A stretch of DNA of 64,000 bases, from contig NZ_KB235914.1 in NCBI RefSeq assembly GCF_000332175.1, positions 441,966-505,965 on the forward strand, read 5' to 3'. The translations under genes were made by a program, and so were the position numbers. Positions within the stretch are counted from its first letter, which is position 1. The number at the start of each line of letters is the position of its first letter. This stretch comes from Pseudanabaena sp. PCC 6802 (lineage in GTDB: Bacteria; Cyanobacteriota; Cyanobacteriia; Pseudanabaenales; Pseudanabaenaceae). This document shows positions 10,867 through 43,468 of the stretch, in pieces. The notes under the pieces are model-generated. The model saw nothing but the letters and a program-made list of their open reading frames with translations. It ran no database searches and was not told where the DNA came from.

Positions 10867-11139
10867 TTAGGCAAAACGGTAGTGTTTCTTTACGTCTTTG
10901 AGGATTTTCCACGTACACGACATTCCAGCGGGAAAAGTTACCAGGTCGCCTTTCCCTATATGCACTGGATCGCCGGATTCGGGCGTGACGATTACTTCAC
11001 CTTCGAGCAAATAACAGGTTTCCTGACTGTCGTAGTGCCAGGGAAACTCAGATGCTTCCTTAGTCCAAATACCCCAATTTTTCACGCCTAGCTCTTGCAA
11101 ATGCGCTTCAGTAGGTTGTTTTTCTACTTGTATTTTCAT
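10867..11139 (-). CDS. Small cupin (DUF861/EutQ-like)
   Basis: A 90-residue single-domain cupin: WGIWTKEASEFPWHYDSQETCYLLEGEVIVTP contains the first cupin motif with its metal-type His and Glu, and GDLVTFPAGMSCTWKI the second, in which the usual His is missing. Such proteins are small beta-barrels often binding a metal or a small acid; no function can be assigned. It starts with ATG at 11137-11139 and ends 66 bases upstream of the lipase start, same strand, so the two may share a transcript. Confidence 0.85.
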   Translation of the reverse strand: MKIQVEKQPTEAHLQELGVKNWGIWTKEASEFPWHYDSQETCYLLEGEVIVTPESGDPVHIGKGDLVTFPAGMSCTWKILKDVKKHYRFA

Positions 11140-11637
11140 AGCTACAAACTTTTCCTCCTTTAAATCTTTTATTACTCGGTTGAGCGCAGGGCAGGTTTAG
11201 CTAGTAGTTTTGCTCGTCACGGGAGACACGCGTATAAAAACCGCCCCTACGACAAATCTGAGACAACTACAAACTTTTTCTGCTGCGATCGGTAAAAATT
11301 GAACCATTACAAGAGATGATCTAAATCAATCTTGAAACTATAGCCGTAGACAGATCTGTTAGGACAGGGGGTGTGGGGGCTGCGACCCCACGCAGGGGTG
11401 GAACCCCTGCACCCCGTCCTAAGCCTATTGGCTGTAGCTATAGTATCGATATATATCGTAGGGCGAGCATTGCCCACCTTACCCATGACATCCTACCTAC
11501 TGGAGTACCTGTGTAGGCTCTGTCAATGCAATCAACCTTAGTTAAATCAAGCTAAAGTCAAAACTAACATCGACACAGGTACAATTATTAAGTATTCTTA
11601 ATATTAATACTCTAAGTATATTTTCCTACTCAATTTT
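11140..11637. other. Intergenic region between cupin and glgB
   Basis: About 500 bases separate two divergent genes. It holds one family A repeat (11338-11443). The 190 bases before glgB are AT-rich, with a TATCGATATATATCG stretch near 11445-11460, and must carry the glgB promoter, although I cannot single out convincing boxes. No ORF with coding character is seen. Confidence 0.6.
11338..11443 (+). repeat. Repeat family A, copy 2
   Basis: Ends CTATAGCC and GGCTGTAGCTATAG; contains CAGATCTG near the left end, then the stems GTGGGG/CCCCAC and AGGGGT/ACCCCT. Almost the same as the copy at 14130-14233, including TTAGGACAGGGGGTG and CACCCCGTCCTAAGCC, which also pair with each other as the outer stem. 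Confidence 0.85.
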
Positions 11638-13959
11638 ATGAATATGTCACCCACAATATCAGCAGAGCAGATCGATCGCATCGTTTGGAACCAGCATCAA
11701 GATCCCTTTGCTGTGCTTGGCCCCCATGAAATTGAGCGGGATGGTAAACCTGCTTGGGTGGTAAGAGCCTACCTACCCGATGCTGAAGCGGTATCTGTGA
11801 TGGACTCAGATCGCCACATGACCTATCCCATGCATTCTGTCCACCACCCCCACTTCTTTGAGTGCGTTATCGATACGCCCCACATGTTTAGTTACAAGCT
11901 CAAAGTGACAGAAGGTGGCAGCGATCGCACGATCTACGATCCCTATTTCTTCAAATCGCCTTTGATGACTGAGTTCGATCGCCACTTGTTCGGGCAGGGC
12001 ACCCACTATCAAATCTACGAAAAAATGGGCGCGCACGTTACCACAGCAGAGGGGGTTAGCGGTGTTTATTTTGCCGTCTGGGCACCAAATGCCCGCAATG
12101 TATCCGTGATCGGAGACTTTAACTATTGGGATGGGCGCAAACACCAAATGCGCAAAGGCGATCCTGGAGTGTGGGAATTATTCGTCCCAGGCATTGGTGC
12201 TGGTACTAAGTATAAGTTTGAAATTAAAAACGATGTGGGTCACATCTATGAAAAGTCCGACCCTTATGGCTTCCAGCAGGAAGTTCGTCCGAAAACCGCT
12301 TCGATCGTCACCGACCTCAACATTCACAAGTGGCAGGATGCGGCCTGGATGGATAAGCGCCGCACGACTGATGCGCTGAAGGAACCCATATCAGTGTACG
12401 AGTTGCACTTGGGTTCCTGGATGCATGGCGATGCCAACACGCCTCCTGCCGACGGCAACCCTATAGTCTACGCCGCCGACATGAAGCCTGGTGCGAGGTT
12501 CCTTACCTATCGCGAACTGGCGGATAAGCTCATTCCCTACGTCAAGGATTTGGGCTTTACCCACATTGAAATGCTGCCCGTTGCCGAGCATCCGTTTGAC
12601 GGTTCCTGGGGTTATCAGGTGATCGGTCACTACGCCGCCACGTCACGCTACGGCAAGCCAGAGGACTTGATGTATTTCATCGACCAATGCCACCAAAATG
12701 GTATTGGTGTAATTGTTGACTGGGTACCCGGTCACTTCCCCAAGGATGGACACGGTTTAGCCATGTTCGACGGTACGCATCTTTATGAAAGTGCCGATCC
12801 TCGCATTGGCGAACATAAGGGCTGGGGTACGCTGATTTTCAACTACAAGCGAAACGAGGTTAGTAATTACCTGATTTCCAATGCCCTGTTCTGGTTCGAC
12901 AAGTACCATATCGATGGTATCCGCGTCGATGCTGTCGCCTCGATGATCTACCGCGACTATTGCCGCGAACCTGGCGAGTGGTTGCCCAACGAGTATGGCG
13001 GACGGGAGAGTTTAGAGGCGATCGAATTTTTCCGCCACCTCCACAGCATTCTCTTTGAGTACTTCCCTGGAGTGCTCTCGATCGCGGAGGAATCGACCGA
13101 TTGGCCGATGGTAACCTGGCCTGCCTATGCTGGCGGCTTGGGTTTCAACTTCAAATGGAACATGGGATGGATGCACGACATGTTGGACTACTTCCACATG
13201 GATCCCTGGTTCCGACAGTTCCATCAAAACAGCGTCACGTTCAGCATCATGTATGCGTTTAGCGAAAACTTCGTGCTGGCGCTCTCCCATGATGAAGTCG
13301 TACATGGCAAGAGTCCGATGATTGGCAAGATGCCCGGCTACGACTGGGATAAGTTTGCGAATTTGAGATGTCTCTATAGTTACATGTTTGCGCACCCCGG
13401 CAAGAAGACCATATTTATGGGTATGGAATTTGCCGTGCGCGATGAGTGGAATGTCTGGGGAGATTTAGATTGGGATCTGTTGAACCACGAGCCTCATCGG
13501 GGCATTCAAAAGCTGTTTACCGATCTAAACGCACTTGTAAAAGCCGAACCAGCTCTATACGAAGTTGACTGCTCCTACGACGGCTTCCAATGGATTGATT
13601 GCAGCGATAATCGCAACTCTGTTGTTTCCTTCATGCGCAAGGATAAGTTAGGGAATTCCTTAATTGTCATCTGCAACTTCACGCCCGTACTGCATAGCAA
13701 CTACCGCATTGGCGTACCGAAGAAGGGATTTTATTCGGAAATCTTTAACAGCGACGCTACGGTCTATGGTGGCAGCGGTGCGGGCAACTACGGCGGTAAA
13801 TACTCAGAAAACTGGGGCTATCACTATATGCCCTATTCGCTTGATATCTGCTTGCCACCTTTGTCAACTCTCGTGTTTAAGCTGACTAAGGAAGAAATCG
13901 ATCCCGAGCCTGAAGTCACTTCAGAAAGCGAAACAGAAGTAGTGGAGCAATCTGTCTGA
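11638..13959 (+). CDS. glgB: 1,4-alpha-glucan branching enzyme GlgB
   Basis: A 773-residue GH13 enzyme that makes alpha-1,6 branches in glycogen. Domains: an N-terminal carbohydrate-binding region (about 1-110), CBM48 (about 135-225, [20 protein letters not shown]), the catalytic barrel (about 260-640) and the C-terminal beta domain. The catalytic nucleophile is in [10 protein letters not shown] (about residue 427), the acid/base Glu in LSIAEEST (about 483) and the stabilising Asp in LSHDEVVHG (about 551). The last 20 residues are an acidic tail ([19 protein letters not shown]), slightly longer than usual. A second in-frame ATG follows at codon 3. It stands alone, with a strong hairpin downstream. 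Confidence 0.97.
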
Positions 13960-34703: not shown

Positions 34704-35909
34704 TTATTTTTTTATCCCTACGTATTTTGACAGAGGTAATCGATATCTTCTTAACAGTCTAATTGGACGAATTAGATAATACAGAAAATGAAGAAATTTA
34801 GGTAAAGGTAAAAACTCTAAATCTTGTGCTGTGGGAGTAAACCATCCGTGAGTATTCATCAGGCTCATAAAGATTTCCCATCTATCTTGCCAGCGCTCGC
34901 GCGCGCTCATGTGGAATAAAGCCTGCGGAACTCCCTGGATTTCCTCCTCAGTAGTTTCAGAGAATAATTGCTGACTGACCTGTAGTGCTAGAAAATTCGC
35001 TGCGGCATCGGACTCTAACTCTTTTAATACTTCTTCTGAGAGGGGCGCTTCTAGTAAATTTCTTGCTAGTAGAAGTGCTAGAAAAATTATCCGTTTGCAG
35101 CCTAAATTTGCAGCTCGATCCATAATCTGTTGCCAATCCATACTGGTATTAGCTCTCACTGTTTCTGCTACATCGCAAATCCGCTGCAATGTGTTCCAGC
35201 AGTCTTTAGTTCCGTTTAAACAGAGCATCAAAAAGCAGGCTTCTGGACCTAAATTAGGCACCATTTCTCCAGCTAGGCACAGTGGCTGCTGGCTCTCCCA
35301 CCAGTAGTCATCGCTTGCAGAGCGAGAGTAGTTCTTTGGTAAAATTTCGCAATGCAGGTCGATACAAACGATATCGCCATCAAGCACAAAATGACACTCC
35401 CAGGGCAGATTGAGAATAACCTCATATCCTGTGGAAGCGAGCAAATCTATAGCTTTTTGGTAATGCTGTTTGCGCACGAGGATATCTAGATCCCGTGTTT
35501 GACGCAGGCAAAGGTTTCCATAGGCTGCCGTTGCTAAAATAGATCCCTTGAAGGGGAGGGCGGGAATTTGATGGCTTTCAAACAAGCGCACGATCGCAAT
35601 TAACTTTTGAGCTAGAAAAACGGTACGACAACTGTTAGTTTGAAAATACTCGCGGAGTTGCTTGAGCTTCTCTAGAGGAACAAGTTCAGGGCACGTACTT
35701 TTGAGACTTTGGTACAAAAGTGGCATTACCCCATGCCATTGTGCTACTTGCATCAAATAATCCCAGTCGATATCTTCTAAGAGAAGAGTCCTTAAATACT
35801 CTGCTATTGGAGCGGGCATGTAAGTCCTGGCACAGCAAAGCAACAATTCTTCTTCTTTGCGAACGGTCATAGGCAGCGATTTAGCAGGTGTTCGTGGTAA
35901 TTGGATCAT
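34704..35909 (-). CDS. Lasso-cluster nucleotidyltransferase (NTP_transf_5 type)
   Basis: ATG 35907-35909 is preferred (401 residues); the frame from 35975 would overlap the ABC gene. The family motif is PFKGSILATAAYGNLCLRQTRDLDILVR (residues about 112-140), with the GS turn and the catalytic D-x-D. The rest is helical, without known domains. Uncharacterised nucleotidyltransferases of this type occur in lasso peptide clusters that also have a kinase; in pseudomycoidin such an enzyme acts after the kinase on the phosphorylated peptide. It is the last gene of the cluster, 25 bases after the exporter gene. Three tandem AGGTGAAAG units lie just before its start. Confidence 0.82.
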   Translation of the reverse strand: MIQLPRTPAKSLPMTVRKEEELLLCCARTYMPAPIAEYLRTLLLEDIDWDYLMQVAQWHGVMPLLYQSLKSTCPELVPLEKLKQLREYFQTNSCRTVFLAQKLIAIVRLFESHQIPALPFKGSILATAAYGNLCLRQTRDLDILVRKQHYQKAIDLLASTGYEVILNLPWECHFVLDGDIVCIDLHCEILPKNYSRSASDDYWWESQQPLCLAGEMVPNLGPEACFLMLCLNGTKDCWNTLQRICDVAETVRANTSMDWQQIMDRAANLGCKRIIFLALLLARNLLEAPLSEEVLKELESDAAANFLALQVSQQLFSETTEEEIQGVPQALFHMSARERWQDRWEIFMSLMNTHGWFTPTAQDLEFLPLPKFLHFLYYLIRPIRLLRRYRLPLSKYVGIKK

Positions 35910-35913
35910 GCTG

Positions 35914-35940
35914 CTTTCACCTCTTTCACCTCTTTCACCT
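35914..35940 (-). repeat. Three exact 9-base repeats at the nucleotidyltransferase start
   Basis: CTTTCACCT three times on the plus strand, i.e. AGGTGAAAG three times in the transcript, 4 bases before the ATG at 35909. Each unit contains AGGTGA, usable as ribosome binding site and, in the ABC frame, as stop codon. Confidence 0.8.
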
Positions 35941-37767
35941 ATAGTGTTGGGCTTGAATTTCAAACAAATTGGCATAAGTTCCGCCCAACCGTACTAGATC
36001 CTCGTGACTGCCGCTTTCCACAATCGAGCCATCAGTCATTACATAAATGCGATCGGCCATCTTAACTGTGGATAGACGATGGCTGATCAGAATAGCCGTT
36101 TGACCTGCAATTAGCTGGCGAAATCCTTCAAAGACTTCAGCTTCTGCTTTAGCATCCATAGCGCTGGTAGGTTCGTCCAGGACAATCACAGGTGAGTTCC
36201 GCAGGAATGCCCTTGCCAGTGCTACTTTCTGCCATTGACCGATACTAAGTTCTTCACCCTGGTCGAACCAATTTCCCAACATGGTGTCATAGCCTTGAGG
36301 TAATCTGGCGATGACGCGATCGGCTCCAGAACGACGCGCCGCCGCAATTATGCTTTCGTGATTTGGTGGAATGTCAATATTTCCCAAACCGATATTTTCT
36401 CTGACAGTAAAGTAATACTTAACATAGTCCTGGAAAATAATGCTGAATTGGCGGCGCAGTTCTATGATATCAAAGTGACGGATATCGATACCATCAATCG
36501 CGATCCTCCCACTGGTTGGATCGTACAGACGGCACATCAGCTTAATCAAAGTGGTTTTACCAGAGCCGTTTTCACCTACTAATGCTACTATTTCACCTGG
36601 TTTAATCGTCAGGCTAATATCCTGGAGTGCTTGCCTGGTAGAGTTGGGGTATTGGAAGTTCACGCGATCGAAAACAATGCCAGTTGCCATGTTTTGAGGA
36701 ACGGGCTTGGGATGTGCGACTTGAACTATATTGGGTCTCAACCCCAAAAACTCGTAGAGATTGACAAGAAATAAGTTGTCTTCATAGAGCGATGATAGAC
36801 TGCTCAAAACTCCCTTAAGAGACTCCTGTCCGCGTTGTAGAGCTTGGTAATAAAGTACCAGATCGCCAATGCGCAGAATTCCCACGAAGGTTTGATAGAT
36901 GATGAAGCTATAGGCAGTAAGCATGAGAACGATCGCTGCAGCTTGGGCACCTAAACTAGCGAGAAAGCGCTTAGTCGAGATCTCCATATTTTCTCGGTAC
37001 AGTTGCTGCCGTAACTTGTCAAAGCGCCGGCTGAAAAGCGAACCTAAGTCAAATAGACGAATTTCTTTAGCAAAAAGATTTCCTGTCAACAGCCAACTGA
37101 GGTATTCAGTTTCCCGATCGATCGCAGTGCGTTTGCGATGCCAATGGTACATAATCTTGGCAAATTTAAACCGCACCAATACCGCTGGAATTGCTGCCAC
37201 AAACAATACGCCAGCAACTCCCCAATGTAGCGAAAGTAGCAATCCTACCATTGCGACCAGGGAAATAACATTCTGACCGGCTTCTACCAGATTATTCAGG
37301 ATTTGCTTGGGACGATAAGTGGCTTCTTCTTGGGCGCGTTGCAGCGTATCGAAGTACTGGGGATTCTCATAGTACTCCAGATCTACTTCAATGGATTTGG
37401 CATGAATTATACTACTCATATAGTTCTCGATCTGCTGGGATTGGGCAGTATTGACAAGTTCCGCACCGGATGTCAAGACAACGTTGACTAGAGTAACCGC
37501 ACCAGTTAAAGCAATGAGGAGAATTAGTTGAGAGAAGTTAGACGCTCTGTCAGCACTGGTAACGCTGATACTGACCGTATCGATAATCAGCTTTGTGAGA
37601 TACAGTTGCAGTACAGGTACAATGCCCTGAGCGATTAACAAGAAAATATAAATAGCAGTCCAGCCAGGGGAGCTTTGCCAGACCAGGCGCAATGCTGGTA
37701 AAAGCCGCAAGGCATTCTTAAGTTTATGCAGTAACGTTTGCAAGGAGGACATTAAACTTGCTTTCAC
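35935..37767 (-). CDS. ABC exporter (permease-ATPase), lasso peptide D protein
   Basis: A 610-residue half-transporter. The membrane domain (about 20-330) has five to six helices (WTAIYIFLLIAQGIVPVLQLYL; QAAAIVLMLTAYSFIIYQTFV). The ATPase has Walker A VGENGSGKTTLIKL (about 395), Q-loop IFQDYVKYYF, signature LSIGQWQKVALARAF, Walker B VIVLDEPTSAMD and the H-loop ISHRLSTV. There is no peptidase domain, as in McjD-type lasso exporters, where the leader is removed by a separate protease. The start is GTG at 37767, or ATG at 37752. It begins one base after the methyltransferase stop. Probable role: secretion of, and immunity to, the mature lasso peptide. Confidence 0.92.
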   Translation of the reverse strand: MKASLMSSLQTLLHKLKNALRLLPALRLVWQSSPGWTAIYIFLLIAQGIVPVLQLYLTKLIIDTVSISVTSADRASNFSQLILLIALTGAVTLVNVVLTSGAELVNTAQSQQIENYMSSIIHAKSIEVDLEYYENPQYFDTLQRAQEEATYRPKQILNNLVEAGQNVISLVAMVGLLLSLHWGVAGVLFVAAIPAVLVRFKFAKIMYHWHRKRTAIDRETEYLSWLLTGNLFAKEIRLFDLGSLFSRRFDKLRQQLYRENMEISTKRFLASLGAQAAAIVLMLTAYSFIIYQTFVGILRIGDLVLYYQALQRGQESLKGVLSSLSSLYEDNLFLVNLYEFLGLRPNIVQVAHPKPVPQNMATGIVFDRVNFQYPNSTRQALQDISLTIKPGEIVALVGENGSGKTTLIKLMCRLYDPTSGRIAIDGIDIRHFDIIELRRQFSIIFQDYVKYYFTVRENIGLGNIDIPPNHESIIAAARRSGADRVIARLPQGYDTMLGNWFDQGEELSIGQWQKVALARAFLRNSPVIVLDEPTSAMDAKAEAEVFEGFRQLIAGQTAILISHRLSTVKMADRIYVMTDGSIVESGSHEDLVRLGGTYANLFEIQAQHYR

Positions 37768-37768
37768 C

Positions 37769-38890
37769 CTAGGAAAAACTGCTAACTAAGCTCTGGACAA
37801 AACTTATAGCTTTATGAGGTTCTGCGAATAAGTGAGGGTAATCCTGAACCAGATGATGGCTGAGTTTTTCTATTGATAAGGTGCCATTACTATGGGATAA
37901 AACGTAAAGAGCAGCCCTACCTTTATCGTTAATCTGGGGTTGATAGTCCCAGGCAACTTGCTTGATACTCTTAAGTGTTCTCGGCACCGAAAAAAAAGTA
38001 GAACGCACCTGTTGAGTCAGATTGGTTCTTACTTCCCAAGTCCAGTCGCCACAGGGAGGACGTTGCAATTTAAAGACGATCTCCTCACCTGCTGTCAGTT
38101 CGATGGGAGGGTCGAGGGGTAAAAATGCTGCCGACCAATGTAGGGGAGGTTCGTGAGGGGCCGTTGAAAGCCATGTTTCTCCTAACTGCATCTTGAACCA
38201 ACCAGCAAAGCCATGGCACGTTCCAGATTCCGCAATCGCATATTGCACTTCGCTCTGGCAGTAGGTGCTATGAGCTTGATGAAAATCCAGGGTTAACAAT
38301 TTGGCGGGTTCTGCCAAATAGCGAGCCTTGTTCAACTCTTTGTTGTAGTAGTAAATGGATTGACTGGCGTACGTGCGAGCCGGATCGTGGTCTATGCCCA
38401 TGTGAGGTGTCGACCAGGATGCTATTTCTTGTTGATGGAGTTCTTCAGCGCATATGGGTACTGCTTCCATCACCGCTGCTTGGGGAATCATTACTCCCCC
38501 TGGTTTTAAATACTTGTCGCGGGCGTAGAACAGCGATGGCAGCAGATCTTCTTCCAGTAAAAAGTTACCAGTAAATACGGATACGATCGCGTCTACTCGT
38601 TCGGGCAAATTCACCTCTTCAATCTTGCCCTGGAGGCAATGGATGCGATCGCTAAACCCATTGGCTCGCACAATTTGAGCGGCGACGCTAATAATATCTT
38701 CGGGTTCGACCAGATAAACTTGCTTGGCACCTAACTTGGCCGCTAAAAGTCCGTGGATGCCCAGGCCAGCACCTAAATCGAGGACGACACTGTCAGGAGC
38801 GATCGCCTGGGTCAAAGCTCGAGCGTAGGCTTCATTGCGACGAGAATCAAGGGTCATCGATTGTTGACCCTGAACCAATAAATAGCTCAC
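37769..38890 (-). CDS. PRMT-like SAM methyltransferase in the lasso cluster
   Basis: A 373-residue enzyme starting with GTG that overlaps the kinase stop by 4 bases (GTGA), a sign of coupled translation. The SAM site is VVLDLGAGLGIHGLLAAKLGA (about 35-55), with the acidic VEPEDII. The double-Glu loop region is represented by VFTGNFLLEEDLLPSL, and the C-terminal beta barrel is as in protein arginine methyltransferases (LHWSAAFLPLDPPIELTAGEEIVF). The last 60 residues look like a small PqqD-like or winged-helix unit (LSHSNGTLSIEKLSHHL). Its place suggests modification of the lasso peptide, which has two Arg and two Asp in the predicted core. The target is inferred. Confidence 0.82.
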   Translation of the reverse strand: MSYLLVQGQQSMTLDSRRNEAYARALTQAIAPDSVVLDLGAGLGIHGLLAAKLGAKQVYLVEPEDIISVAAQIVRANGFSDRIHCLQGKIEEVNLPERVDAIVSVFTGNFLLEEDLLPSLFYARDKYLKPGGVMIPQAAVMEAVPICAEELHQQEIASWSTPHMGIDHDPARTYASQSIYYYNKELNKARYLAEPAKLLTLDFHQAHSTYCQSEVQYAIAESGTCHGFAGWFKMQLGETWLSTAPHEPPLHWSAAFLPLDPPIELTAGEEIVFKLQRPPCGDWTWEVRTNLTQQVRSTFFSVPRTLKSIKQVAWDYQPQINDKGRAALYVLSHSNGTLSIEKLSHHLVQDYPHLFAEPHKAISFVQSLVSSFS

Positions 38891-39753
38891 AGTTGATGAA
38901 CTTCCTTCAGTAAAAAGTCGTAAACTTGGGGCAACATGACGAAATCGCGGGGGTAAAACAGTTTTTTAACTGGAGTTTGTTTTACCAGGTGGGCGTAAGC
39001 ATTCAAGAGATTGGGATTGGTAGGAATAAAAAGGCTAACATCGTAGCCGTGCGTCAACAAGTCGAACACGGCTTGGGCTTGGGGCAGCCGCTCGGCATAA
39101 ATACGTTCGTCGGGACTTTCATCGAGCAAGTAAATAATGCCAAGAGGAACGGGTTGCTGGTGAAGTACGGCACCTAACTGTGCTGGCTCGTAAAAAATTT
39201 TATAGTCCGTGTCTTCTGAAGCATCCAATCCCAGTATTTCTCCTGCCTCCGGATATAGTTTAATGCGAGGATTTCCCGGTACTATCCGACTATTTTCATC
39301 AATAACCAGAACGTCATCCGTAATAAAACCCGCACCGCGAGAAGCACAGTAAGCACTCAGCGTTGATTTACCTTTCCCGGAATAGCCCACAAAGGCGATT
39401 CCCCAATCTTCTAAAGATACGGCGTTCGCGTGAATTGCCACCTGTCCTTGTAAGTTAAGACAGATACCAGTCAGCACGCTAGTAAACCCAAGCGTGAGTT
39501 CGCCAACATCTATTTCTCTAGCATCGTCTCGGATCAGAATTTTGACATCAGAGCCATCATTACTCACCCAAGCTCCTAATTGTTCCGTCCAGTCAATCCA
39601 ATATGGAGTGCCAGATTTTTTCTTAGCTGTCGGTAAACTAGGGACATATTCCAAGCTCAAACGAACTGTTTGGGGAATTTGCGCTAGATCCCTAGAGACA
39701 GTTTCTAAAACATTCATTGAAAAAATAAGGTGTAGTCTGCCTGCCAATTTCAT
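38887..39753 (-). CDS. HPr kinase-like enzyme, lasso peptide K protein
   Basis: A 288-residue protein related to the C-terminal catalytic domain of HPr kinase/phosphorylase. Motifs: VAIHANAVSLEDWGIAFVGYSGKGKSTLSAYCASRGAGFITDDVLVID, i.e. the HANAV strand, Walker A GYSGKGKST (about 119-127) and the acidic DDVLVID. Such kinases are known in lasso peptide clusters (paeninodin, pseudomycoidin), where they phosphorylate the C-terminal Ser. The N-terminal 90 residues (VRLSLEYVPSL; WIDWTEQLGAWVSNDG) fit the small adaptor part of these enzymes. It is the first gene after the precursor, 331 bases downstream, so the precursor may be made in excess. Confidence 0.88.
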   Translation of the reverse strand: MKLAGRLHLIFSMNVLETVSRDLAQIPQTVRLSLEYVPSLPTAKKKSGTPYWIDWTEQLGAWVSNDGSDVKILIRDDAREIDVGELTLGFTSVLTGICLNLQGQVAIHANAVSLEDWGIAFVGYSGKGKSTLSAYCASRGAGFITDDVLVIDENSRIVPGNPRIKLYPEAGEILGLDASEDTDYKIFYEPAQLGAVLHQQPVPLGIIYLLDESPDERIYAERLPQAQAVFDLLTHGYDVSLFIPTNPNLLNAYAHLVKQTPVKKLFYPRDFVMLPQVYDFLLKEVHQL

Positions 39754-40084
39754 TTAGCAGAAACGGGACAAAAATCAGGACAAGGAAGCACCAACCCATT
39801 CAGCTAGATGCAATTAGATACAGATAGATACAGAGTGCATCTCAAGTTTGCAGGTTCATAACCCCACCTATCCTCCCCTTACCACGGGGAGGTGACGGAG
39901 TCGGAGGGGTAATTGCAAGACCAGGATGATTCCTAGATACCATTAAGGAAGAGTTGCACGGATAAGTGAGGGCTATTGCCTGCTAGAGCAGTAGCTTTGT
40001 TGTATGATAGCCCATCGCATCGTACAACTCCTCTCAAAGACTTCAGACCGTATTTAGAAATACGATCTATATCTAAACTTTATC
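39754..40084. other. Spacer between lasso precursor and kinase gene
   Basis: 331 bases without a gene. It contains the hairpin CCTCCCC/GGGGAGG at 39872-39892 and a decayed repeat around it. A plus-strand frame here (39976-40191) is antisense to the precursor and not accepted. Confidence 0.5.
39872..39892 (-). terminator. Possible attenuator after the lasso precursor gene
   Basis: A perfect 7-bp stem with a 7-base loop, about 190 bases after the precursor stop and before the tailoring genes. No T-tract, so it may rather limit read-through or protect the precursor mRNA. Confidence 0.35.
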
Positions 40085-40237
40085 TCATCCATCCACCATC
40101 ATCATCCTCATTGCCATACTCAGGCGAGCAAAGTCTCCATATGCGCCTGTATTCATGGCTTGAGTCATTGCCGCAACGGAACCCAATTTAGAAATTTTGA
40201 TGGCTGAATAAGTCTTTTTGTTGTTTTTGCCAATCAT
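40085..40237 (-). CDS. Lasso peptide precursor (A gene)
   Basis: A 50-codon gene too short for normal ORF calling. ATG at 40235-40237 is preceded by AAGGAG (40246-40251), 8 bases away. The leader is MIGKNNKKTY, then SAIKISKLGSVAAMTQ. It fits the lasso leader pattern: Tyr, a hydrophobic residue in the usual Pro position, Lys-Leu-Gly-Ser-Val, and Thr as penultimate leader residue. Cleavage after TQ gives the core AMNTGAYGD (ring, Ala1 to Asp9) followed by the tail FARLSMAMRMMMVDG. The core starts with Ala rather than Gly and has six Met, five of them in the tail. It lies between cyclase and kinase genes, same strand. It is the only candidate in the cluster with both leader features and an acidic residue at position 9. 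Confidence 0.86.
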   Translation of the reverse strand: MIGKNNKKTYSAIKISKLGSVAAMTQAMNTGAYGDFARLSMAMRMMMVDG

Positions 40238-40479
40238 AGAATTAACTCCTTACTTGTTTAGATAATTGAGAGTTACATGCTTGAGCCAAATTTAAGTGCA
40301 ACTTTCGCTGCGAGCAAACCAAATATCTTAGAAAAACATTTCGATGTGCTCGGGGGAGGCTTTGAAACTCGCACTACGGAATTTTAGCATGTTAATGAAA
40401 ATACTAGACTAACCCGAGCATTGGAAAAGTTCCCTACGAGCTTCTAAAAATACATGCCCCAACTCTACAAGCAACATAG

Positions 40480-42357
40480 CTACATAGAAGTTATGCATTG
40501 ACGAACATAGCGATCGCTAACTTTTTGATACCAATTAACAAAGGCCAAAAGGTAATATAGCTGATTAGCAGTGTTATTTTGGTAAGGCTCTCCCGGACAA
40601 TATGCCTCAGAGTATCCCTGACGATAACGATCGAGATAAATTTTCAATTGCTCGACATTAACGATTTGCCGCAGTAAAGGAATATCTCGTATTTGCCCTA
40701 AAAGTTCCAAGGCTTGATGTCCTTTACCAAGTCCAGCGTATTTTAGGGGATCGAAATAGTTTTCTTTGGAGCGCCACAGGATATCCTGTGGCAGTTTAGT
40801 TTGATTGGCTTGACGGAGAAATATTTTTTCGTGCATGGAGTCATACTGGAGAGCAGGGGGCAGAGCGATCGCAAACTCTACTAATCGGCGATCTAGTAGA
40901 GGTGAAGTATATTGCAACTGATGTGCAGCGCTCATTAATTTGTAAACCTGACCCATACCAACAGCCCCAGCAGAGTCGATTCCCCACATAATCATCCGCC
41001 ACTGGTCTGAGGATAGCGTACTTTCATAATATTGCTGGATGGCTAGCCGTGTCTGCATTGTTTGGGCATAGGCTGGTGCAATCCAGACAGGTAAGGGATT
41101 AGACAGGCGTTGCCTTCTCGCAAACCATGGCGCGCGCAAAAATCTGGGCAGTCGAGGCAGTACGAATTCTCGCCAAACTGCTGAGTGCCAGCGCCCTTCG
41201 GTTTTCAGGATATGGAGTACTTTTCGGCAGCAACCAGCTCGTGCTAAGTCTGACAAGCTCGTATAAAATAGTTCGTCCCCCCCTTCCCCATCAAAAACCA
41301 ATCCAAATCCTTGCCTTTGGATTTGCTCCATCAGGCTAATATTCATCGCCAGCGTGTAGCTTACTAAGGGATCGTCAGTAACTGGTAAGCTGTGCCAGGG
41401 TTCGCTCAAAGACCAGGCGCGATCGCTATTGACTGGATGCCACCTTACCTGGGGATATTGCTGTAAAAAAGATTGAATTGGTTGGCGCTCGTCAAATTCT
41501 GGAAAAATATCGGTCACGGTTGAGAATGCATCTACCACTGGCAAGTGATTTAGTAAGGAAATCGTAACTGTAGTCGAGTCCAGCCCGCCACTGAGCGTAC
41601 TGCAAATCGATCGACAACTGCGCAAACGATCTTTGGTAGCTCGATCCAATATATGCCAAAGCTCCTCGTAGTATATCTCTGGCGATCTCCGTGAGTTGTA
41701 GGATGCAGATATGGCCAATCGTGCAATTTGTCGCTGTTGCAGTTGCCCGGATTGGAGCACTAGCGCGAACCCCGGTCGCAGGCGCGCGATCGCGGCAAAA
41801 GGGGTGATGCCAGGCGGATGTGCCCACAAGTTGCAGATAGTATGGGCGAGGTAGAGTTCGTCCAGTGCTTTACTCACTTGGGGATGCAGCAATAGAGTTA
41901 CTACCCTTGAAGATAGCAGCAGGGTCTTACCATCCCAGTAGTAAGCAAGCGTGCGACCTCCCACAGGATCGCATCCCACCAGCAGTAGATCGCCGAAGGC
42001 ATCCCAGAGAATAAAAGCAAACTCACCGATCAGGTATTTTAAGCAATCGATTCCCCATCGGCGATAACTTGCAATCAGCAGTTGCGCATCGGTGGTAGAA
42101 CTTGGAAGATCGGCTAAAAGCAATTCGCGTGCATCCAGGCGACCATCCCAGACCAAAACGCAACCAAGAAATTCGACTACGGGTGCTTCATGACAGGATT
42201 CAGGTGTATCAAAGAATTGATTGCATCCTAGACTAAGACATACTTTAGTATCGTGCCAGTCGCCCTGTCCATCCTGTCCTAGCACGTGCAGATCGTCCAA
42301 CATGTTTTGCCAGGGAGTAGGCTTCTGGCTGTTCCAAACACCTAAGATGCCGCTCAT
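40480..42357 (-). CDS. Lasso cyclase (asparagine synthetase-like, C protein)
   Basis: A 625-residue homologue of asparagine synthetase B. The N-terminal glutaminase-like domain begins MSGILGVWNSQK: Ser instead of Cys at position 2, so it cannot use glutamine, which is the rule for lasso cyclases. The synthetase domain has the ATP motif CSTLSGGLDSTTVTISLL (about residue 254) and VFDGEGGDELFY. It should adenylate the Asp side chain at core position 9 and close the ring on the N-terminal amine of Ala1. It follows the B1 gene by 63 bases and precedes the precursor gene by 242 bases. Confidence 0.93.
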   Translation of the reverse strand: MSGILGVWNSQKPTPWQNMLDDLHVLGQDGQGDWHDTKVCLSLGCNQFFDTPESCHEAPVVEFLGCVLVWDGRLDARELLLADLPSSTTDAQLLIASYRRWGIDCLKYLIGEFAFILWDAFGDLLLVGCDPVGGRTLAYYWDGKTLLLSSRVVTLLLHPQVSKALDELYLAHTICNLWAHPPGITPFAAIARLRPGFALVLQSGQLQQRQIARLAISASYNSRRSPEIYYEELWHILDRATKDRLRSCRSICSTLSGGLDSTTVTISLLNHLPVVDAFSTVTDIFPEFDERQPIQSFLQQYPQVRWHPVNSDRAWSLSEPWHSLPVTDDPLVSYTLAMNISLMEQIQRQGFGLVFDGEGGDELFYTSLSDLARAGCCRKVLHILKTEGRWHSAVWREFVLPRLPRFLRAPWFARRQRLSNPLPVWIAPAYAQTMQTRLAIQQYYESTLSSDQWRMIMWGIDSAGAVGMGQVYKLMSAAHQLQYTSPLLDRRLVEFAIALPPALQYDSMHEKIFLRQANQTKLPQDILWRSKENYFDPLKYAGLGKGHQALELLGQIRDIPLLRQIVNVEQLKIYLDRYRQGYSEAYCPGEPYQNNTANQLYYLLAFVNWYQKVSDRYVRQCITSM

Positions 42358-42420
42358 TGATTCAGATACTTCGATCGCGAATCCTTATAATTTCTAGATA
42401 ATTTCTAGTAGTTGAAATCT

Positions 42421-42741
42421 TTAATCAGAAACTTTGTAAATCAGCCCGTAACTCGATAATTCCTCTATAAAAAACTCTAGATCGTTAAGAACTCGATCGC
42501 GATCCACTTCATATTCGTCAATTATGTTTTCAACCACATGGGCAAAAGGCTGTTGTTTTTGCAAAGCTTCCCAAAATGGCAAACTGGTTTCGCTTAAACT
42601 GTAGTACATGCCAGAAGAAACATGTAACAAAACCGCTTCATTCTCTACGTAACTGCAAAAAACGTCATCAACTACTTTAAAGACTTGAGCCTTCAATAAA
42701 TCTTCGCTTGTCGATACATTGTTTTGACTGTTTGTATGCAT
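42421..42741 (-). CDS. PqqD-like RRE protein, lasso B1
   Basis: A 106-residue PqqD fold: FKVVDDVFCSYVENEAVLLHVSSGMYYSLSETSLPFWEALQ, then VVENIIDEYEVDRDRVLNDLEFFIEELSSYGLIYKV. In lasso clusters this RiPP recognition element binds the precursor leader through the Tyr/Pro/Leu face and delivers it to the B2 protease. It is separate from B2 here (split B1/B2 type), lies upstream of the cyclase gene and is transcribed with it. The first 15 residues are polar and probably disordered. Confidence 0.93.
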   Translation of the reverse strand: MHTNSQNNVSTSEDLLKAQVFKVVDDVFCSYVENEAVLLHVSSGMYYSLSETSLPFWEALQKQQPFAHVVENIIDEYEVDRDRVLNDLEFFIEELSSYGLIYKVSD

Positions 42742-42982
42742 AATTTTTTCTGTAAACCTTAAACCGAGCGGAGCTAAAAACAGAGCGATCGCGTAGCTTA
42801 TAGACCATATAGCACTCCTCTCTGAATTGTGAAGTTTTTTCGCCGATTGCTGAATCGCCGATCGCTAACTTAAACACAAATCATTTCAGATTGCCATATT
42901 TGACATCCCACTCTTACTCGCCTATCGATCGGCAAGTTTTAATAAAAACTATTCTGAGGATAAATAATTGGGTTGATATTAA

Positions 42983-43468
42983 TTACTTCATAAACATCGC
43001 TGGCAACTTTACCTCTATTGGACGCTCGAACGGGACAAAATGTTGCCGTATATTTGGTCGATCGTTCAAAACTTTGTTCTGATACTCTACCCACGCATGG
43101 GCTTGAACCTCTCCAGCAATCTGTTGTACTCCTATGCGCAAGTCGCTAACAATGCCCTGACGACGTAGTAAATACCACAAAACCAGCGATCTTTTCAGAC
43201 AGTTGGCCCAATACTGACTGTAATGAGCTGCGATCGCCACCATTCGTGCTGTTGTTTCAACCTGCAGCCATAAAGATTCGGGCGATCGTGAAGTTGCCTG
43301 TGGGCATAGCTTCAAGAGCGCATATTGGGTTCGTCCCATTCCCAAAAGATGTATGCAGAATGCTACTAATGGCAGTAAGACCAATGCCTGTAACAACAGC
43401 GATTTCTCTTGCCAAGACAGTCTTATGAATTTGCCAGCCTTGCTAAATAGGGCTCCAAAATGTGACAT
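42983..43468 (-). CDS. Lasso leader peptidase, B2 protein (transglutaminase-like)
   Basis: A 161-residue cysteine protease of the transglutaminase-like superfamily. Catalytic triad: Cys in YWANCLKRSLVLWYLLRRQG (about residue 89), His in AHAWVEYQ (about 122) and Asp in LNDRPN (about 136). The N-terminal stretch LLLQALVLLPLVAFCIHLLG is hydrophobic, as in most B2 proteins. It removes the leader from the precursor after RRE binding. It is the first gene of the cluster; 241 bases separate it from B1, and the 540 bases upstream must hold the cluster promoter. Confidence 0.93.
   Translation of the reverse strand: MSHFGALFSKAGKFIRLSWQEKSLLLQALVLLPLVAFCIHLLGMGRTQYALLKLCPQATSRSPESLWLQVETTARMVAIAAHYSQYWANCLKRSLVLWYLLRRQGIVSDLRIGVQQIAGEVQAHAWVEYQNKVLNDRPNIRQHFVPFERPIEVKLPAMFMK

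Follow-up and report, generated by a model that had tools for sequence, protein, structure and literature searches.

Does the minus strand of Pseudanabaena sp. PCC 6802 between positions 43468 and 34704 carry a working lasso-peptide pathway, and what would the genes beyond the basic set do to its product? The window, the whole stretch of DNA analysed, comprises 64,000 nt (NZ_KB235914.1, 441,966–505,965), and all positions below are numbered within it unless a locus is named.

Gene content and the precursor

The ORF list gives eight ORFs between 43468 and 34704, in the order B2, B1, C, A, K, M, D, N. The original prediction of eight same-strand lasso genes was borne out, with every ORF on the minus strand where it had been placed and its family matched. 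The features are as follows.

42983..43468, minus strand: B2, leader peptidase, a transglutaminase-like Cys protease of 161 aa (NF033537, PF13471)
42421..42741, minus strand: B1, a PqqD-like RRE of 106 aa (PF05402)
40480..42357, minus strand: C, macrolactam synthetase of 625 aa, an Asn-synthetase homologue with Ser2 instead of Cys (PF00733, NF033535)
40085..40237, minus strand: A, precursor of 50 aa with the 26-residue leader MIGKNNKKTYSAIKISKLGSVAAMTQ and core AMNTGAYGDFARLSMAMRMMMVDG (NF033528, AAGGAG, homologues)
40033..40062, minus strand: hairpin GAUCGUAUUU..AAAUACGGUC directly past the stop codon of A, a possible processing or attenuation site (fold z-score)
38887..39753, minus strand: K, HPr-kinase-like tailoring kinase of 288 aa (PF07475)
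37769..38890, minus strand: M, PRMT-family methyltransferase of 373 aa, overlapping the end of K by 4 bases (PF22528)
35935..37767, minus strand: D, ABC exporter of 610 aa (PF00005 over the cut-off, PF00664 slightly under)
34704..35975, minus strand: N, NTP_transf_5 nucleotidyltransferase homologue of 423 aa (PF14907)

B2 matches NCBIfam lasso_biosyn_B2 (NF033537) with 86.4 bits (cut-off 33), the single match to this family in the whole genome, and its Cys90, His124 and Asp136 (Cys-His-Asp) are invariant in the four loci compared. B1 scores 55.3 bits against Pfam PqqD (PF05402, cut-off 23.4) and can be aligned with ten other cyanobacterial B1 proteins. C scores 123.7 bits against Asn_synthase (PF00733), over the cut-off, and 242.7 bits against the cyanobacterial lasso cyclase model NF033535, under the cut-off of 525. 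The ATP-binding loop of C, SGGLDS, is invariant among relatives. The N-terminus of C reads Met-Ser, in agreement with the Ser2 type proposed for it, and the glutaminase Cys is therefore missing. The end of K runs 4 bases into M, a single base separates M from D, and D and N overlap; read from the coordinates, this spacing suggests that these four genes are likely translated together. A scan of the window for promoters and terminators gave no excess over shuffles, and no RNA family matched within the window.

A scores 25.2 bits (E 1.2e-5) against NCBIfam lasso_cyano (NF033528), under the cut-off of 33. An AAGGAG ribosome-binding site precedes it at normal distance, its leader matches that of Calothrix sp. 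PCC 7716 at 51% over 39 aa, and homologues occur in L033 (the Calothrix locus), L057, L059, L089, L103 and L105. The AAGGAG site, the leader common to Calothrix and the same gene between C and K in related loci argue that A is more than a chance ORF, and they uphold the identification of 40085–40237 as a lasso precursor. Position −2 of A is Thr, and core position 9 is Asp; T−2 together with Asp at ring position 8 or 9 is found in the precursors of L033, L057, L059, L089 and L105. L103 keeps the genes, and its precursor lacks Asp or Glu at ring positions 7–9. Precursor evolution predicts a conserved leader and a changing core. The comparison with Calothrix matches this prediction, as its counterpart of A closely resembles A in the leader and carries another core, with Asp8. 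The hairpin after the stop codon of A has a fold z-score of −2.3 in a 101-nt stretch; the terminator scan, which bears on this element, found no terminator excess. Between A and K, at 39872–39892, lies the near-palindromic CCTCCCCGTGGTAAGGGGAGG, the sole copy within the window.

The gene set, the catalytic residues, the ring acid and the conserved neighbourhood are thus all in place. With an invariant B2 triad and SGGLDS loop and a precursor that carries both T−2 and Asp9, the complete lasso cluster first proposed is the best reading of the locus, and we regard it as very likely that this lasso-peptide cluster is functional and belongs to a divergent subfamily in cyanobacteria. From the genes we infer leader cleavage, cyclisation, threading and export. 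B1 would bind the leader via YSAIKI..LG, a variant of YxxP, and B2 would cleave the leader after Thr-Gln. C would then adenylate Asp9 and couple it to the amino group of Ala1, so that a 9-residue ring closes around the tail. The predicted product is an Ala1–Asp9 macrolactam with the 15-residue methionine-rich tail FARLSMAMRMMMVDG and a predicted monoisotopic mass of 2608.12 before tailoring, and D would export it.

A divergent subfamily and its distribution

The window and the six loci with homologues of A form a subfamily of seven loci. Their shared feature is the leader, in which the Pro of [Y/W]xxP is replaced by Ile or Met in all seven precursors, against none of the 50 further precursors from cyanobacteria in which the motif was scored (Pro in 50/50). 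The window leader has YSAI, its residues 10–13, at this location and falls outside [Y/W]xxP, a motif that is common in lasso peptides and not strictly defining. Discrete lasso RREs are described as reading [Y/W]xxP, and in a related pathway RRE binding was found to require YxxP (PMC13381572); the missing Pro in the window leader counts against the reading of the cluster as functional.

In the cyclase tree, C of the window and those of L033, L057, L059 and L089 form one clade (support 100/100) on a very long branch, its stem measuring 2.54 changes per site. A profile built from these five members subsequently recovered L103 and L105, which have the same leader type; the tree itself covers the first five. 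B2 precedes B1 in four of the five tree members, all but L089, which is an exception because no B2 lies beside it. L103 has a fusion of N and B2 upstream of B1, and L105 has B1 before a divergent B2. The order C-A-K-M-D is common to the window, L033, L057, L089, L103 and L105; L103 and L105 carry an additional methyltransferase gene between C and A. This second SAM methyltransferase (L103 10282–11055, L105 8706–9524) is of a non-PRMT type, and L063 11763–12575 resembles it.

Lasso clusters are not rare in the phylum, since lasso_biosyn_B2 is over the cut-off in 32 of the 386 genomes sampled; Cyanobacteria have been named an underexplored lasso source (PMC7533575). Most clusters in the phylum are arranged as B1-B2-C-A-K-D, in many cases with N added, and have their precursor gene between C and K. 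The position of A in the middle of the cluster was thus correctly described; as a special feature it had to be discarded, being normal in the surveyed cyanobacterial loci. Synteny at the insertion site was compared as well: every one of the 38 family genomes has the left flank gene, but at the four loci inspected it is not accompanied by any of the other flank genes tested.

Several other loci were observed in the survey. L037, L038, L039, L042 and L071 are lasso-like, with B1, B2, K, D and N (B1 was not seen in L071, a short contig). Their precursors, YSEPELKAHGKISGLTQQVGGSGGF.., have no Asp or Glu at ring positions and no C nearby, and these loci are possibly another RiPP class. L037 has a glycosyltransferase between K and B1, and similar ORFs are found in L039 and L042. 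L056, a lasso locus from a different cyanobacterial lineage, has two C genes and, at 11008–12934, two longer B1/PqqD-like proteins (313 and 327 aa).

Proposed roles of K, N and M

K matches Hpr_kinase_C (PF07475) with 24.1 bits (E 2.9e-5), under the cut-off of 33.3. Lasso kinases carry a His-Lys-Asp-Asp motif (PMC9266682); the corresponding His108, Lys129, Asp146 and Asp147 are intact in K, and HKDD is present in all 33 full-length K proteins found. The match and the motif together bear out the HPr-kinase-like enzyme originally predicted. The lasso kinases characterised so far have a C-terminal Ser as their target (PMC9266682). The window precursor ends in ..MVDG, without such a residue; a C-terminal Ser occurs in 4 of 50 precursors from 30 K-bearing cyanobacterial loci, and the core of L057 has no Ser anywhere. 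K would most likely act on something other than the C-terminal Ser used by its studied relatives. N scores 196 bits against NTP_transf_5 (PF14907, cut-off 31.2), in agreement with the nucleotidyltransferase first predicted. PsmN, the nucleotidyltransferase homologue of the pseudomycoidin cluster, attaches hexoses to the C-terminal Ser once this is phosphorylated (PMC9266682). In L103 (6387–8027), the NTP_transf_5 protein and the B2 leader peptidase form a natural fusion, which makes N part of the pathway in at least one case.

The original prediction also had the product modified by up to three further enzymes of the cluster. This appears plausible, since C-A-K-M-D recurs in other genomes, and K, M and N would most likely tailor the precursor or the product. 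The alternative that these three have their substrate elsewhere in the cell, or travel with the cluster as mere hitch-hikers, and that the lasso peptide stays unmodified, we consider unlikely, although of the competing explanations it survives best. It would account for the missing C-terminal Ser, the known target of K, which is absent here and in 46 of the 50 precursors, for L059, which lacks M, and for the examined stretches of L033, L089 and L105, which lack N. The conservation of HKDD, the K–M overlap and one-base M–D spacing, the N–B2 fusion and a core Met content that tracks the presence of M (see below) all speak against it.

M scores 52.3 bits against PRMT_C (PF22528, cut-off 27). Its profile matches PRMT2 in the PDB with E 9.7e-51, and both PRMT2 and PRMT6 give E < 1e-46. 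The SAM methyltransferase gene of the original prediction is accordingly identified by homology as a PRMT relative. As judged from sequence, M has the PRMT fold, PRMT_C and the SAM-binding motif DLGAGLG, and it keeps a THW-like loop (LHW, 250–252). The double-E loop, SVFTGNFLxxEDLL, retains the second Glu (E114) and has Val105 in place of the first; both residues are invariant in all six M homologues. Both Glu residues of the double-E loop are needed for arginine methylation. An AlphaFold2 model of M from two sequences was too poor for a fold search (mean pLDDT 41.5). A PqqD-like C-terminal domain on M was considered and rejected, as profile comparison with B1 gave a probability of 0.6% and Pfam gave no match.

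M is present in six of the seven subfamily loci, all but L059. Met accounts for 25 of 184 residues in the six M-bearing cores, against 6 of 1557 in all other cyanobacterial cores found. No permutation in 100000 equalled this association, a figure that ignores shared ancestry among loci that are related. The core of L059 contains no Met at all; its sister locus in the cyclase tree, L089, carries M. Across the phylum sample, only 2 of 386 genomes contain the close M clade. PRMT-like genes of greater distance lie in the lasso loci L063 and L090, too, with cores that are not Met-rich. The window genome has three further PRMT-like proteins (G000:C5 2238152, 2423833 and 2655813; L097, L095 and L096). 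Their N-terminal regions are long and rich in repeats that look TPR-like by eye, and all three proteins keep the first double-E Glu. Our literature search found no work joining lasso peptides with PRMT; the sole mention of 'arginine methyltransferase' merely cites a lasso paper.

M probably acts on the tail and not on Arg, and would most likely methylate a non-arginine site in the Met-rich region. In its fullest form, this reading makes the M proteins the founding PRMT-family RiPP tailoring enzymes, methylating a non-arginine residue (methionine or a neighbour) of Met-rich lasso tails; the RRE of their pathway would recognise leaders that lack the YxxP proline, and its kinase would have a novel target. 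We put forward this combination tentatively, with its failure in some part the likelier outcome. It is improbable that the peptide is an ordinary lasso peptide on which M serves as a true arginine methyltransferase at Arg12 or Arg18. Such a role would follow from the PRMT2 and PRMT6 matches, from the retained E114 and LHW and from the two Arg in the window core; it is opposed by the Val in place of the first Glu in six out of six homologues and by an Arg position that varies among the cores. As the L105 core, one of the six M-bearing cores, has no Arg at all, plain arginine methylation is unlikely. Least credible is a decaying cluster or a macrocycle without threading: C was absent from all 57 relatives sampled in the family and class (34 of them of the family itself), so that occurrence is sporadic, and related loci show damage (an IS66 element splits M in Calothrix PCC 7716, L089 has no adjacent B2, L103 no ring acid), whereas in the window all genes are open with their catalytic residues and the precursor has T−2 and D9.

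Significance and comparison with known systems

Lasso peptides yield antibiotics and stable scaffolds; those of cyanobacteria have received little study. The basic lasso system is already known; what is unusual here is the little-known subfamily. Three points at which it departs from the rules established in other phyla can be put to the test: its leaders would be recognised although they lack the YxxP proline, its lasso kinase has no C-terminal Ser as substrate, and its PRMT homologue lacks one catalytic Glu and is paired with methionine-rich cores. Should M act on the tail, it would add a new methylation type to the lasso repertoire.

The closest system is that of Calothrix sp. PCC 7716 (L033, NZ_AP025018.1 10862429–10883454), which has the same B2-B1-C-A-K-M-D order (identity with the window 76% for M, 59% for C and 74% for D) and the leader KKSYSAMQISKLGSLAEMTL. 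Unlike the window, it has no N in the examined stretch, its core reads GGTGSRGDGG.. with Asp8 as the ring acid, and its M is disrupted by the insertion of an IS66 element (8-bp duplication GAAGAATT). Within L033 10001–12960, the IS66-type transposase (11194–12660) splits the 3′ end of M, with the last ~30 codons beyond it.

Clusters of the paeninodin/ThcoK type share C, B2 and a kinase with His-Lys-Asp-Asp with the window; their kinase phosphorylates a conserved C-terminal Ser, whereas the window precursor ends in Gly, and no PRMT-like gene is described for them, while the window has M (PMC9266682). The pseudomycoidin cluster, from a different phylum, likewise has a kinase (PsmK) and a nucleotidyltransferase homologue (PsmN) by its lasso genes, but the substrate of PsmN is the phosphorylated C-terminal Ser that is missing in the window (PMC9266682). 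SAM methyltransferases are known in lasso clusters from lassomycin LasF/StspM and the PIMT type; these are C-terminal carboxyl O-methyltransferases or isoaspartyl methyltransferase homologues (PMC9266682), whereas M belongs to the PRMT family. The main cyanobacterial lasso clusters resemble the window in the C-A-K-D block, in the precursor between C and K and in the frequent presence of N. They differ in that B1 usually precedes B2, the leader carries YxxP with its Pro (50/50), the cyclases belong to other lineages and the cores contain few Met.
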